A DNA stretch of 28,226 bases from a virus: positions 5,007 through 33,232 of the IMG/VR virus record IMGVR_UViG_3300030430_000981, one strand, 5' to 3'. This document shows positions 3,363 through 15,009 of this stretch, piece after piece. Under the pieces are notes generated by a model. It was not told the DNA's origin. It saw only the letters and a program-made list of their open reading frames with translations, and ran no database searches. Both the position numbers and the translations under genes were made by a program. Within the stretch, counting starts at the first letter, position 1. Each line of letters opens with the position of its first letter.

Positions 3363-4873
3363 AGCTGAAATCCGTATTGTGATTGTGACTCTACAATGTG
3401 CAGAGCCTTCTTAGCACGAGTAAGCCCAACATAAAACGTCCGTATTTCAGACGCTTGATCTTGGCTTTCGGCGCATGCTTTTGATGAATCTAATAGTAAG
3501 GCGACGTTATCCGCCTCGCCACCTTTGGCTTTGTGTATCGTCGATATCCGAATCCTCGGCTTGCCCGATAAGATAGACTCGCCCATCCGACGTACAGAAG
3601 TAATGTAGATCCGCTCCTTGTCCGATACTTTCAGGACTTCGTGCCACGGTGTCTGCTCTGTCGCGCTCAACTCGCACAGGCTCTGTATATCTGTGAGCGT
3701 GTAAGTTACTTCTGGGTTTAGGTTTGCAAGGCTTTTCCTGCCAGCTTTGGTAATAACGGTTGAGTTTAACTGTGTTGATAAGCTCTTCAGTTCCGATGCG
3801 GACAGTTGTTTGTTCTTGCATAGTCTAAGCCATACCTCGATTCCTGTTAAAACATTGGGCGATATGGACCAACCAGATCCTTCGCGCCAATACAGGAACC
3901 CTTGTTCTTTGAGGTCATTTGCGATTCTGTTGGCGATAAAGTTTGTACGAGCAAGGATTAGCCACTCACCAGTTGTAATGTCCACATCTAGGATATCACG
4001 ATGCCAGACAACTGTCCCGGTTTTATCGGTGGGTGACCACACTTTTTTCTGTCGTATATCTATCTGTTTTACAAGGGAATCTGCTAAATTATACACTGCC
4101 GTGGGAAGCCTGTATGATTTATCTAATACTATCTTATTTTCTGATGAACGCAGGAAATCTCTCACATCCACACCCATCCACGAGTAGATACATTGATCGT
4201 CATCTCCTGCATAATAGATGCGCTTGGCCTTGGTCTTCAGCACCTCGTGCACCATACGCCACTGCATGGGTACAAGGTCCTGCGCTTCGTCTACAATCAG
4301 GACATCTAACGTCGGACCTTGGCCCTCGGCTACAAACTGTTCGATCATGTCAACAAAATCTAGTTTGTTTGTTTCCTTCTTGTAGTCATTCACCACCTGA
4401 TCGACTAGCTTGAGTTGCTGATAATGCAACCTGCGATCCGCCGTAGCGGAAAACTGATCTTCAAGTGTGCGACCAGTAACCCTTGCTATTTGTATCATCG
4501 ATAAATACGCATCGCCGCCACGCCCCGGCGTAAACAATATCCCGTCAGACATTTTAACTGAAGAGTTAGCAGAAAACTCCAGACCCAAATACTTTGCTAT
4601 TTTGGTATAGTCAGCCCCCTTCAATACTTTTTGACCACTTAACCCTAAACAGTTAAATGCCAGCGAGTGTAGTGTACGAAACCAAACCATTTGTTGTGCG
4701 TCCATGTTCAGCTTTTCTGCCGCACGGTTACGCGCTTCTTCTGCGGCCTTCCGACTGAACGACACAAACGCGATCCTGTCTGGTGGTGTGCCGCGAGACA
4801 GTTCGTCTTCCACGATTGATATAAGTCTGGTTGTCTTGCCTGTACCGGGCGGTCCAAAGATTGTTGTTTCCAT
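3359..4873 (-). CDS. Superfamily 1 DNA helicase (UvrD/Rep type)
   Basis: About 504 aa from the ATG at 4873. This start is preferred because it overlaps the primase stop (TAATG) and puts the Walker A motif GPPGTGKTT at residues 7-15, as is usual. An upstream ATG would add 24 residues that overlap the primase. Further motifs are FSRKAAEEA (Ia), LIVDEAQDLVPMQW (II), YYAGDDDQCIYSWMG (III), a KSYRLP (IV-like) stretch and GLTRAKKALHIV (VI). It is an ATP-driven 3'-5' helicase by family, smaller than UvrD (~720 aa). It sits between primase and polymerase, so it may serve as the replicative or repair helicase, since no DnaB-type helicase is in the window. Confidence 0.93.
   Translation of the reverse strand: METTIFGPPGTGKTTRLISIVEDELSRGTPPDRIAFVSFSRKAAEEARNRAAEKLNMDAQQMVWFRTLHSLAFNCLGLSGQKVLKGADYTKIAKYLGLEFSANSSVKMSDGILFTPGRGGDAYLSMIQIARVTGRTLEDQFSATADRRLHYQQLKLVDQVVNDYKKETNKLDFVDMIEQFVAEGQGPTLDVLIVDEAQDLVPMQWRMVHEVLKTKAKRIYYAGDDDQCIYSWMGVDVRDFLRSSENKIVLDKSYRLPTAVYNLADSLVKQIDIRQKKVWSPTDKTGTVVWHRDILDVDITTGEWLILARTNFIANRIANDLKEQGFLYWREGSGWSISPNVLTGIEVWLRLCKNKQLSASELKSLSTQLNSTVITKAGRKSLANLNPEVTYTLTDIQSLCELSATEQTPWHEVLKVSDKERIYITSVRRMGESILSGKPRIRISTIHKAKGGEADNVALLLDSSKACAESQDQASEIRTFYVGLTRAKKALHIVESQSQYGFQL
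4314..4327 (+). repeat. Heptamer repeat pair inside the helicase gene
   Basis: GGACCTT (4314-4320) followed in register by GGCCCTC (4321-4327), + strand reading, inside the SF1 helicase gene just N-terminal to its DEAQ box. A two-unit member of the heptamer family. Confidence 0.4.
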
Positions 4874-6408
4874 TAGAACGGCACCTCGTTTTCTCCGACA
4901 TCGATCCTTGGAGCTTGAACCTCGGCCCCAAAACACGGAACCCACCAGACACGCATGGGTTTGGTATCGCCCTTGGTTGTGTTGAATCGTTTTAAGCCAT
5001 TAGCCGTACTGTCTGTGTTCAATTCTTTCAGACGTTCCTGTATCTGACCACGGCTGTAACTATCAAACTTGTGATTGCGTAGATACTTAATCAATGCCTC
5101 AAGCTTGAAGAACGTCTTGCCCTCTTCATCATCAGTATATGGCTTGCCCAGTGCTAGTTCTTCGGCTGACTGTGCCTGTACTCTTCCATCACAGAATGCC
5201 TCAAGTAGATCCATGAACTGACCTTTGTATGTTAGTTCTTCCGGCACTTCGATCTCGCTCATGTCTTCCATCATCATGGATACAATGACCTGCCAATCAG
5301 CCACCTTCATCATCGGTGGCATGATGTGTATCTGTTCCATGCATGCTTTTTGAAATCGTTGTGGTGTCTGTAGGTCATCTGTCGTTAGCTCGACTCGCTT
5401 ACCACCCACATCACAAAACCACACAGGTGGCTCTGATTTGACAACACACAGACCCGTGACCTCTACGTTTGTTATGTTGGATCCGATACCAAACTTTTTT
5501 GTCTTGCACAGACTCTTGTTGCAAAAAGATTTGAGCGGCTCCTGATCACACGGAAAGCCATACTCCTTCTTCTCATGCTGCTGCTGTATGGTGACTATCT
5601 CCGTAGCTGGTAGCGGCGGAGTGCAATACTTCATGTTAATTTCTTCTAGCCGTTGCCGCCAGTTATCTGGCTGTTCCTTCTTACAGGCAACTGCTGCTGC
5701 AAACATAACTGTATTGCGTGTGCCCTCTGGAATCCCCTGCCCAAACATACAGTTCAGGCAGGGGGACCACTCAACGAACTCGTCAACCTGTTCACCAAAT
5801 GTTAAACCAACAAAAACATTTGGGTCCACAGATCGGGCAGAGACGAGTTCAAGGAATCTTTCTAACGATGCTGGTTCACCGTCTTCGTCAATCGCGAAGC
5901 GGAGCGTCTGTTCCGAATCAAAGTACGGAAGGTTAATAAAGTTGCCAACATCACCACGCTCGACAAGAATCTGTTCCTGCTTCGGGAATATTTCGCAGCC
6001 ACCGTACCCAAGATAGGCAGCAATCTCTGATGCTTTGTCACGCAACTCTCCTGCGCTGATCCAGTCGTTGAAGAAAAAGAATATGTGAGCACCGCCGGAC
6101 TTGCTCCTGCATACAACGCAAGGCACTTCCATATCGCGCAGCTTTTTGTCTATTGCCACCAGATCCAAAGGATACTGATCAATATCAAGAGCGCCAAATT
6201 TGCACTTGTTGTGCTCGTTAATAGGAATAGATCCAACACCATTCAACCCCTGTAAGTGTTCACGAATCAAATCTAATGTCAGTGGCTTTCTTACGATGTA
6301 CGATTTAGCTTTCTGTTTACCAGCCCTTCGTTCATCAGATATCTGTGTCTGTCCATGTGCTGCGTCAAAGCCCTCAAACGCAGCCATGAACCGTTCATCT
6401 ATGTTCAT
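4873..6408 (-). CDS. Archaeo-eukaryotic-type primase (TOTE-like AEP)
   Basis: About 511 aa from ATG 6408. The N-terminal half has the AEP pattern of TOTE-type primases: IREHLQGLNGVGSIPI (residues ~48-63), the metal-binding LDID (D75, D77), then CRSKSGGAHIFF (about 100-111, the SxxGxH nucleotide-binding motif) and GYGGCEIFPKQ. A later Cys cluster (CDQEPLKSFCNKSLCK) could bind Zn or an Fe-S cluster. It should make primers for the PolA encoded two genes on. A longer frame opens at 6570, but the extra 54 residues do not look like the family and lie over a structured leader, so I chose 6408. Heptamer repeats encode part of the C-terminus (4903-4930). Confidence 0.87.
   Translation of the reverse strand: MNIDERFMAAFEGFDAAHGQTQISDERRAGKQKAKSYIVRKPLTLDLIREHLQGLNGVGSIPINEHNKCKFGALDIDQYPLDLVAIDKKLRDMEVPCVVCRSKSGGAHIFFFFNDWISAGELRDKASEIAAYLGYGGCEIFPKQEQILVERGDVGNFINLPYFDSEQTLRFAIDEDGEPASLERFLELVSARSVDPNVFVGLTFGEQVDEFVEWSPCLNCMFGQGIPEGTRNTVMFAAAVACKKEQPDNWRQRLEEINMKYCTPPLPATEIVTIQQQHEKKEYGFPCDQEPLKSFCNKSLCKTKKFGIGSNITNVEVTGLCVVKSEPPVWFCDVGGKRVELTTDDLQTPQRFQKACMEQIHIMPPMMKVADWQVIVSMMMEDMSEIEVPEELTYKGQFMDLLEAFCDGRVQAQSAEELALGKPYTDDEEGKTFFKLEALIKYLRNHKFDSYSRGQIQERLKELNTDSTANGLKRFNTTKGDTKPMRVWWVPCFGAEVQAPRIDVGENEVPF
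4903..4930 (+). repeat. Heptamer repeat array in the primase 3' end
   Basis: Four consecutive 7-mers in register (GATCCTT 4903, GGAGCTT 4910, GAACCTC 4917, GGCCCCA 4924), read on the + strand. On the coding strand they specify part of the last ~20 residues of the primase (around GAEVQAPRID). The period of 7 is not a multiple of 3, so the repeat is a DNA-level feature rather than a protein repeat. Confidence 0.55.
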
Positions 6409-6544
6409 TGGATCGCCCCATGTTGGTTTAGAGCGGGGGTGGTTGATTAGCAAACTCAGGTCAGAGACGGCAATCTCTATGCGACCTGTCGCGGGACCAA
6501 TCAACCTTGTACGCAGCCCCCGGCTACGCCCAAACCACCCGCGA
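6409..6544 (-). promoter_or_regulatory. Structured leader before the primase gene
   Basis: A 136-base gap between the SSB-like stop and the preferred primase start. In the leftward transcript the segment AATCAACCACCC (6448-6437) can pair either with GGTTGATT (6506-6499) or with GGGTGGTT (6540-6533). The two pairings share the same bases and exclude each other. This resembles a switching leader that could tune primase translation. Alternatively the region is coding, as an N-terminal extension of the primase from 6570. Confidence 0.35.
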
Positions 6545-7345
6545 TTAAAACGGTATTTCATCTCCTTCATCTGATGCGGACTGATTCATCTCTTCAGCCG
6601 TGCCTGCGGCTGTCTTAATCTCGCCCTTCTTAAACTGGTTATACAAGTCACGCGCCTGCACCAAAATATCGCTAGACACTTCCTTTACATCGCCCTGCGC
6701 TATTTGGTAGTTGAACCACGAACCTTTGTCGTTGCTCTCCTGCACAGAAGTCAGCTTCCAGACAGTCGCCCACATTGGTGGGGTAAACAAGCCCTTCTCT
6801 GGATGCACCAGCTTCATGCCAGCGCGGCGAGTATTCCACTGCTTGGCAATCTTCATCTGGGTCTTCTTCATATCACAGATCATTTGCTGCGGTATGCCGT
6901 CATCACCAAAAGCCAACACCAAGAACTGCGCTGACCGCACAAGCTCGTTACCGGACGGAAGCATCTCGTTAGCACCATTACGCTCAGTGCTACGGATGTC
7001 AGGACTATTCGGATCCAACTCACCCATAAAGCCACCACCATTCTCGCGTAACTGGAACTCCAGATACTTCATTTGATACGCGCAAGGGATCACACTAACT
7101 CCCTCTTCTGAGTCCCAGAACTGGCCCGTCACCGTATTAAACAAGTCACCACCCGAAGCACCTTTAATATACTTAGAGTCCTGCTTATTTAACTGCGGAG
7201 ACAACGGTTGCAGAATACGCAGAAACGGGATCTGCATATCTTCTGCACCTACATTCTCAAGACCTTCACCTGCACTCGCGTACAAGTCATCCATTACATT
7301 TGCCACTGCCGTGGACTTTTTTTCTACTACTGCTGTATCAGGCAT
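6545..7345 (-). CDS. Putative single-stranded DNA-binding protein
   Basis: A 266-aa protein with a flexible N-terminus, a central beta-rich region (IPFLRILQPLSPQLNK, ending near WATVWKLTSV) and an acidic tail finishing DEGDEIPF. Such acidic Phe-terminated tails are the partner-binding tails of SSB and T7 gp2.5. Its place directly upstream of primase, helicase and polymerase, together with this tail, supports an ssDNA-binding role coordinating replication. The fold itself is inferred, not recognised by a signature motif. The gene is preceded by AGGAAG and spaced 7 bases from the upstream gene. A recombination or annealing protein is the main alternative. Confidence 0.6.
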   Translation of the reverse strand: MPDTAVVEKKSTAVANVMDDLYASAGEGLENVGAEDMQIPFLRILQPLSPQLNKQDSKYIKGASGGDLFNTVTGQFWDSEEGVSVIPCAYQMKYLEFQLRENGGGFMGELDPNSPDIRSTERNGANEMLPSGNELVRSAQFLVLAFGDDGIPQQMICDMKKTQMKIAKQWNTRRAGMKLVHPEKGLFTPPMWATVWKLTSVQESNDKGSWFNYQIAQGDVKEVSSDILVQARDLYNQFKKGEIKTAAGTAEEMNQSASDEGDEIPF

Positions 7346-11579: not shown

Positions 11580-11749
11580 GTAGCCGTCTCCTGATGTAAC
11601 CAAAGCACTTCTGGCTCTCTGCCGCCAGTCAAATTAACAGCCGTCCGCATAGCTTTTTTTTCTGCGTCTTCAAGGTCAGATGCATGGACGTATATCTCAC
11701 GATCCACCAGCACCCTGACCTTAACTTTATATGTTCCACGCTCTGTCAT
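11576..11749 (-). CDS. Hypothetical 57-aa protein
   Basis: A short frame that fills an apparent gap in the operon. It reads MTERGTYKVKVRVLVDREIY, then VHASDLEDAEKKAMRTAVNL, and ends LHQETAT. The start overlaps the previous stop (ATGA at 11746-11749) and the stop overlaps the next start (ATGA at 11576-11579). The beta strand-helix pattern (YKVKVRVLVDREIYVHASDLEDAEKKAMR) resembles small DpnD/PcfM-like domains that carry VxxExxVxAxsleEA patterns. That likeness is by memory only. Confidence 0.75.
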   Translation of the reverse strand: MTERGTYKVKVRVLVDREIYVHASDLEDAEKKAMRTAVNLTGGREPEVLWLHQETAT

Positions 11750-11943
11750 TGCGGATCTAATCTCCAGTCCACACCTTCTTCGGTAGTCAGACAGAAAGTG
11801 CTGTGCATTGAGTCCTCATGGTTGAAGCCATGTTGGGTAAGTTCCAAATGGCACTCACTTATTGTGTCGTGGGTACTGATCACATTGACCGTGCCCCCAT
11901 TGAAGCTGGTCATCGTGACCATGATCAGCAGATACTTACTCAT
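11746..11943 (-). CDS. Hypothetical small protein
   Basis: A 65-aa protein: MSKYLLIMVTMTSFNGGTVNVISTHDTISECHLE... It starts with a short hydrophobic beta segment, contains two cysteines and resembles small phage proteins of unknown role. It is coupled on both sides (8-base overlap upstream, ATGA downstream). Confidence 0.6.
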   Translation of the reverse strand: MSKYLLIMVTMTSFNGGTVNVISTHDTISECHLELTQHGFNHEDSMHSTFCLTTEEGVDWRLDPQ

Positions 11944-14014: not shown

Positions 14015-14148
14015 TATTTTGCTCCCTTCACTGTCATTGGTTTGGATACAGCCTGTTTCAACCACGCACGGTTGTTGATCGTAATGTGCAACACACGATG
14101 ACGTAGCTTCGGTTTCGCTAGACCGATAGTAATTGGCTTGTGTTTCAT
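14014..14148 (-). CDS. Small basic peptide, first gene of the leftward operon
   Basis: A 44-aa frame starting MKHKPITIGLAKPKLRHRVL and ending SKPMTVKGAK, strongly basic. Its stop overlaps the next ATG (TAATG at 14012-14016) and AAGGGG lies upstream of its start, just below a good promoter. Such basic first-gene peptides are common in phage early operons. No family is assigned. It could also be a leader peptide. Confidence 0.5.
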   Translation of the reverse strand: MKHKPITIGLAKPKLRHRVLHITINNRAWLKQAVSKPMTVKGAK

Positions 14149-14243: not shown

Positions 14244-14313
14244 ACATAAAAGTAACAGGACATATAGTGTTTTCTACGGGTAAACGATTTAATTTATTTT
14301 TTTCTGAAAATGG

Positions 14314-14388
14314 CGTTACAAACGTTACAAACGTTACAACCCTTACTGGGCAACGGTTGTAGCTGTAACACTTCTGTAACGTTGTAAC
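14314..14388. promoter_or_regulatory. Inverted cluster of GTTAC/GTAAC repeats (operator or origin candidate)
   Basis: Three direct 9-base repeats CGTTACAAA/C begin at 14314, 14323 and 14332. Three TGTAAC copies in the opposite orientation begin at 14364, 14375 and 14383. Between them ACAACC (14336-14341) and GGTTGT (14355-14360) form an inverted repeat centred near 14348. The cluster is in the divergent gap between the leftward early operon and terminase small subunit, next to an AT-rich run. It could be a multi-site operator or a replication origin with iterons. Confidence 0.6.
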
Positions 14389-14415: not shown

Positions 14416-15009
14416 TTGGAAAATAAAACAGACAAACCCACAGAAAACACTATAGGCAAGGCTGGTAGACCTGCTGGGCTTACCAACAGACAGCGTGAAT
14501 TTGCCAAGTATTATGTTGAGGGTAAATACTCCAACGCAGAGTGTGCTAGAAAAGCTGGCTACGCTGAAGGTAGTGCCGCACAACATGCCGCCAAACTGCT
14601 TGACGGTAAATCCTTTCCTGAAGTACCCGAACTGATTAAAGATATGCGGCAAGCCAGAGAACGCAGATACGGCGTGACCCTGATCAATCAACTCAAACGG
14701 TTTGAAGAATTGTCCATATCGGCTGAAGAGGCTGGACAATTCAGTGCCGCGATCAATGCTGAGAAAATACGATCTAGTCTTGGTGGCTTGACCATCGATA
14801 GGCGAGAGTCCACACATGTGCATCAACTTGACAATCTTTCGCGTGAAGACATCGTCGCTCGACTCGCCGCGATCAGGAAGCAATACCCCAATGCATTCCC
14901 CGAACCTGAGATGAAAAGGGTTGAAGATGCCACGAACAGAACAGAGCCTGTGGAACTCATTGAAGCAAAATTTACCGAAAAAGACCCACTTCCAGCGGAT
15001 AGAGAATAG
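14416..15009 (+). CDS. terS: Terminase small subunit
   Basis: A 197-aa protein with an N-terminal DNA-binding domain of the Terminase_2 type: LTNRQREFAKYYVEGKYSNAECARKAGYAEGSAAQHAAKLL (residues ~22-62). A helical middle and a variable polar C-terminus follow. It recognises the packaging site and loads DNA onto the large subunit. The start is TTG with GGGGATGGA as RBS; an ATG at 14409 is in another frame and stops after five codons. The large subunit gene is unusually far away (2.5 kb), separated by oppositely oriented genes. It overlaps the nuclease gene by 83 bases. Confidence 0.88.
   Translation: MENKTDKPTENTIGKAGRPAGLTNRQREFAKYYVEGKYSNAECARKAGYAEGSAAQHAAKLLDGKSFPEVPELIKDMRQARERRYGVTLINQLKRFEELSISAEEAGQFSAAINAEKIRSSLGGLTIDRRESTHVHQLDNLSREDIVARLAAIRKQYPNAFPEPEMKRVEDATNRTEPVELIEAKFTEKDPLPADRE

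Follow-up and report, generated by a model that had tools for sequence, protein, structure and literature searches.

Sequence comparison and structural modelling suggest that a repeat array upstream of terS in a tailed marine phage is very likely an iteron replication origin, bound by the winged-helix (wing) domain of the phage's own primase and endowed with a specificity that can be switched. This reading draws on the array itself, the hypervariability of its repeated word with copies changing in concert, a covariation that is unique to the primase wing, a model of that domain and a recombination-like tract, all of which were observed here.

The stretch of DNA that was analyzed (the window; 28,226 nucleotides) corresponds to bases 5007-33232 of a 33,232-base IMG/VR contig with the gene content of a tailed phage (DNA polymerase A, UvrD-type helicase, AEP primase, terS, terL, portal and holin), in which polymerase, helicase and primase are all phage-encoded. 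The genomes of its relatives measure about 52-59 kb, and the closest cultured phages by terL are the Pelagibacter phages HTVC027P and HTVC023P, phage 023Pt_psg01 and DSL-LC04. In bacterial genomes, relatives of the primase were limited to three distant ones. A GP88-like gene (Pfam PF17338; 15410-16039, minus strand) separates terS from terL and belongs to a patch of small leftward genes on the opposite strand.

A repeat array with a fixed layout and a variable word

To the left of the array are the leftward early genes, with the start of a short ORF near 14148, and to its right is terS, which runs rightward; the array occupies the gap between them. CGTTACAAA is found at 14314-14322 and again at 14323-14331, and a third direct repeat, CGTTACAAC, follows at 14332-14340; no further copy of CGTTACAAA was found elsewhere in the 33,232-base record. 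The initial annotation had described three identical 9-base direct repeats, of which all three are present, the third differing from the others in its last base. It was accurate in placing three facing TGTAAC copies within 75 bases, in noting an adjoining AT-rich run (Table 1) and in locating the array in a divergent gap before terS. The central inverted repeat that it reported also exists (ACAACC at 14336-14341, GGTTGT at 14355-14360), but the feature conserved among relatives is instead the set of three direct and two or three inverted word copies beside the AT-rich tract. A single hairpin was set aside as the conserved feature, the three left copies of the word being the same as one another and the spacings being 9/9 on the left versus 11/8 on the right.

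The density of repeats had been judged far above background, and it exceeds that of every one of 25 dinucleotide-preserving shuffles of the window, in which any 6-mer and its complement reached a maximum of 4 copies per 75 nt, compared to 5 copies in stepped windows of the real sequence and all 6 copies within 14314-14388. As in iteron origins, several short direct repeats of one word lie in a non-coding region beside an AT-rich element, which is also seen in relatives and for which strand opening is a candidate role. GC skew, proposed as a check, has its minimum at the array or about 3 kb to its right in most long contigs, but it tracks gene direction and decides nothing. The arms of the imperfect inverted repeat that encloses the array read TATAGTGTTTTCTACGGGT and ACCCACAGAAAACACTATA, the right one lying inside terS.

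Table 1. Coordinates of the array, its surroundings and the proposed reader in the window.
Feature	Position	Strand	Basis
AEP-type DNA primase, proposed array reader	4873..6408	-	Pfam AEP-TOTE 1e-15; phrog_21866 primase
Primase C-terminal winged-helix domain, about residues 439-549	4924..5256	-	AlphaFold2 model
Codon 538 (Pro), second wing strand, proposed second determinant	4957..4959	-	P, Q or N with different word groups
Codon 526 (Leu), first wing strand, tracks word	4993..4995	-	column scan
Imperfect 19-bp inverted repeat enclosing array	arms 14263-14281 and 14436-14454	.	similar arms in many relatives
AT-rich tract adjoining array; candidate strand-opening element	about 14286..14310	.	sequence; same place in relatives
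Left half of array: three direct copies of GTTACA, period 9	14314..14340	+	sequence; layout kept with other words in relatives
Right half of array: three inverted copies TGTAAC at 14364-14369, 14375-14380 and 14383-14388	14364..14388	-	sequence
terS, array neighbor	14416..15009	+	phrog_51, Pfam Terminase_2

About 80 relatives were identified through terS, and the conservation by which the initial annotation had proposed to check the array was borne out: the layout just upstream of terS is kept in nearly all relatives with enough upstream sequence. It consists of three direct repeats spaced by about 9 bp that adjoin an AT-rich tract, followed by a spacer and two or three inverted copies, which change along with the word. 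The word takes at least a dozen forms (GTTACA, GTAACA, GATACA/GGTACA, GTCACA, GTCTCA, GTCTTA, GGAACA, GGGACA, GGGATG, GTGGCA, GTGACG, GTAACC, GTAACG and others). Copies in one array mostly change in concert, with one right-arm site often departing, and the same word recurs in distant relatives together with the same right arm. Different words are carried by phages that are up to 98% identical, as illustrated by G009 (GTTAC) and G010 (GTCTC), which share 97-98% identity over most of their shared DNA. A fixed layout with a variable word that differs between near-identical phages is the pattern expected of sites read by a protein with exchanged specificity.

Besides their words, G009 and G010 differ markedly in one distal block of the late region, whose genes probably concern the tail or host range. 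The pattern-scan matches listed comprised the family of the window phage, coding repeats and one other phage-like contig, and no clear satellite carrying the array without phage genes was among them. The other contig (L299), in which neither a terS nor a primase of the window phage's family was detectable, presents three copies of GGAACAAAC with inverted GTTCC copies on its reverse complement (about 1420-1520), and may hold a similar array in another phage group.

Primase wing residues that track the word

Several candidate readers of the word were discarded. The N-terminal part of TerS holds no change separating the word classes (L003-L011), and no TerS column tracks the word. A linked repressor or a word-specific small gene left of the array was likewise rejected, the early genes there forming a mosaic that is not tied to the word, and with G009 as query no whole gene proved unique to GTTAC phages.

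In a first column scan of 20 genomes, primase residue 526 was the one column in a real gene that separated GTTAC from GATAC. A second scan covered the conserved genes of 22 main-clade genomes carrying both array and primase, scoring by normalized mutual information 4381 variable columns, many of them counted twice owing to the use of two reference genomes. Only primase residue 526 reaches a value of 1.0, with L accompanying GTTAC (7 genomes), Q GATAC/GGTAC (9), H GTAAC (3), K GTCTY (2) and R GGAAC (1). The entries that follow belong to an ORF antisense to terS, which overlaps the array itself, and the next real gene scores 0.72. The primase gene lies about 9 kb from the array.

Shared ancestry alone does not appear to account for the match. 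A primase tree was inferred from the N-terminal 382 residues, leaving out the winged-helix domain. On this tree the word and residue 526 need 9 changes each in the main clade, and the independent pairs on supported branches all agree (three for L, four for Q and three for H), although each word class taken alone has too few of them for significance in a sign test. Two pairs of phages, G000/G001 and G003/L270, are identical or nearly so over the 382 N-terminal residues, yet both wing and word have switched. Over 530 aa the primases of G000 and G001 share 99.4% identity; the residues by which they differ fall in the wing region, and codon 526 is changed at all three bases. This difference sits in a dense tract of silent and non-silent changes (about positions 1377-1422 of the gene), which has the look of a patch acquired by recombination and not of a point mutation. 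The arrays of these two phages present a similar short patch of difference, with a nearly identical left flank.

Alignment with relatives indicates that the primase likely starts at residue 55 of a 565-aa ORF (4873-6570). The full-length structural model was weak (mean pLDDT 65), and its AEP fold resembles a CRISPR-associated prim-pol (7nqd, E 2e-9). Modelled alone with AlphaFold2, the C-terminal domain was predicted with confidence (pLDDT 89-96 across its residues 11-110, pTM 0.74) and is composed of helices followed by a beta-hairpin wing with strands at 86-92 and 98-107. In this model residues 526 and 538 (residues 88 and 100 of the domain) fall in the two wing strands. Foldseek returned no significant match to the wing domain alone, and in VIA-align the top match was TcpK (Z 6.9), followed by the C-terminus of the SCCmec helicase Cch (Z 6.2), Z values that may also arise by chance or from a common arrangement.

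The association was then followed into further contigs. For L280 (G021), K526 led us to expect GTCTY beforehand, and the array read GTCTTA. The expected pairs were also seen in L404 (K with GTCTTA), L412 (K with GTCTC/GTCTT) and L407 (H with GTAACA), while L153 (Q, with P538) goes with GATACA/GGTACA (L416) and shares its array type with L151 and L267, so that it is not independent. The near-identical contigs L408 and L409 do not fit a one-residue rule, presenting Q526 with a GGGACA array, and have N instead of P at residue 538, which is part of the other wing strand. Residue 538 was added after this misfit was observed, and the resulting pairs cover 39 contigs (Table 2). On the basis of these sequences, we hypothesize that residue 538 is a second specificity determinant.

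Table 2. Residues at primase positions 526 and 538 and the word of the accompanying array.
Residues	Word	Contigs
LP	GTTACA	7
QP	GATACA/GGTACA	10
HQ	GTAACA	4
KQ	GTCTY	5
RP	GGAACA	1
QN	GGGACA	2, plus L247 with mixed words including GGGACG
LN	GTTACG	1
FN	GTGACA	1
VT	GTAACC/GTAACG	2
AK	GTAACG	1

There is one clear exception: the wing TT accompanies GTGTTGA in L248 and L251 but GTAACG in L250. The L250 array lies at the very end of its contig (locus start), and the mismatch could mean that the contig is a chimera, that recombination has joined unmatched parts, or that both words are read by this wing. In L264 the primase frame breaks off within the wing (about 11410) and continues in another frame, leaving residue 538 unread, through either a sequencing error or a damaged gene. 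V is found at position 526 in L191-L194, and GTCACA arrays in L012 and L013. The V-primase contig L194 and L012/L013 have similar ends and are not one contig; these sequences suggest, short of proof, that V526 in the main clade reads GTCACA.

Alternative readings and proposed mechanism

The covariation implies only that the wing probably reads the array and does not indicate for what purpose, and the array sits between two divergent gene blocks. The primase wing might accordingly bind an array that is mainly an operator or loading site controlling the divergent early and late genes, with replication starting elsewhere. We consider this unlikely, given that a primase is not a usual transcription regulator, that iterons beside an AT-rich tract read by a replication protein are a common origin plan, and that no other regulator gene tracks the word. 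The regulator gene following the word that is expected of a multi-site operator was found neither among the genes left of the array nor in the genome-wide scans, which find only the primase. The initial annotation had offered an initiator-bound origin or a multi-site operator; the origin is now strongly supported, with the C-terminal winged-helix domain of the primase as candidate initiator, whereas no linked regulator follows the word. The array may serve additionally as an operator, with the primase in dual use. The same annotation had raised the possibility of a packaging (pac) site bound by TerS, which would suit a position directly upstream of terS. This suggestion found no support: the word changes completely between close relatives, and neither the N-terminal region of TerS nor any of its columns tracks these changes, making a pac site extremely improbable.

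The two remaining alternatives concern the covariation itself. Since the distal genes of G009 and G010 differ as well, the word could be tied to the host, and might be read by a factor that varies from one host to another, with the primase residue associated with it through shared host history. Shared hosts, however, would not explain why a single wing residue stands out from thousands of columns, nor would they yield right expectations in distant backgrounds, and we regard a host factor as highly unlikely. A comparison in which thousands of columns were tested over 22 genomes and about 9 independent switches might also owe its result to chance, or to artefacts of relatedness and of the contigs chosen. 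Against this stand the perfect match over five states with the next real-gene column at 0.72, the location of the residue in what the model presents as the expected DNA-reading part of a DNA-binding domain, and the fit of newly found contigs, which reduce chance or artefact to an exceedingly slim prospect.

Under the preferred reading of the array as a primase-bound iteron origin, the beta-wing of the C-terminal winged-helix domain would read a word of 5-6 bp, and the six copies next to the AT-rich tract, three direct and three inverted, would be occupied by several primases. The bound primase would thereby bring the priming enzyme to the site of strand opening, where copying would start. Wing residue 526, and probably also 538, would set the word that is read, and joint exchange of word and wing in the population, by way of short recombined patches that lie about 9 kb from each other, would give rise to many origin types. 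We infer here the physical binding of the array by the primase, as well as its function as an origin and the opening of strands.

A broader proposal, which we advance tentatively although it has a real chance of being right, is that origin specificities in these phages are polymorphic. A reusable pool of 12 or more iteron words, in which every word is matched to a wing allele of one or two residues and jointly exchanged with it by two tiny recombination patches about 9 kb apart, would be kept diverse by conflict (with origin-directed nucleases, origin-stealing satellites or co-infecting phages), and the wing would constitute a natural, largely predictable amino-acid-to-DNA code. If binding is confirmed, these phages would provide, on a single scaffold, a natural set of variants in DNA reading, show initiator and origin changing specificity together, and offer a direct way to study the forces behind the diversification of origins in ocean phages. 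In metagenomic contigs, the origin could then also be predicted from the primase, or the primase from the origin.

Comparison with known systems

The cultured phages HTVC023P, HTVC027P, 023Pt_psg01 and DSL-LC04 resemble the window phage in their polymerase, helicase and primase genes, but their TerL proteins are only 55-61% identical to its own. No array of three direct and three inverted copies was found in the cultured pelagiphages examined. HTVC023P (L143) presents five or so CTAGGAAA repeats within an AT-rich stretch just upstream of terS (about 11680-11800), and these repeats are possibly its origin.

The alpha protein of satellite phage P4 is a replication protein with primase activity whose C-terminal winged-helix domain binds short repeats at ori and crr. 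The window primase similarly unites an AEP primase domain with a C-terminal DNA-binding domain modelled as a winged helix. P4 alpha, unlike the window primase, also carries a helicase domain; in the latter only the AEP domain lies above the Pfam threshold, and the helicases are separate genes.

TcpK of plasmid pCW3 is a winged-helix protein whose beta-wing, placed in the major groove, reads the tandem 9-nt repeats of oriT (PMC6137059). It is the best structural match to the primase domain, at a middling Z (6.9), and its 9-nt repeats recall the period of 9 in the array. In the primase, the residues that track the word fall in the modelled wing, and the bases may be read by this wing rather than by the recognition helix. 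TcpK is, however, a transfer-origin accessory protein and not a primase, with 8% sequence identity to the window protein. In SCCmec elements, the C-terminal domain of Cch2 binds to short direct repeats of a putative origin, which is also a preferred priming region for its partner primase CCPol-MP (PMC7581432). The Cch C-terminus is among the best structural matches to the primase domain (Z 6.2), but in Cch/Cch2 the reading domain is carried by a helicase, as opposed to the primase in the window phage.

In the PLE satellites of Vibrio cholerae, RepA/iteron modules differ between relatives as matched pairs, and swaps show that only matched pairs replicate; these pairs are attacked by the ICP1 nuclease Odn, revealing a conflict over origins (PMC8263062). 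RepA, in contrast to the reader proposed here, is not a primase and has its domain widely exchanged. The nuclease is a known pressure in PLE, whereas none was found here, and second copies of the wing domain (as in an Odn-like nuclease) were absent from the loci examined.

Iteron origins with a matching initiator are of a known kind, as are origin readers borne on a primase or a helicase. To our knowledge, no similarly hypervariable word has been linked to a code of one or two residues, nor do we know of a described case in which a word this variable among near-identical phages can be forecast from one or two residues of a primase wing. The literature searched, which covered few subscription journals, held no earlier report of a variable word with a wing code, and as far as it can tell the joint occurrence of word hypervariability and wing code is new.
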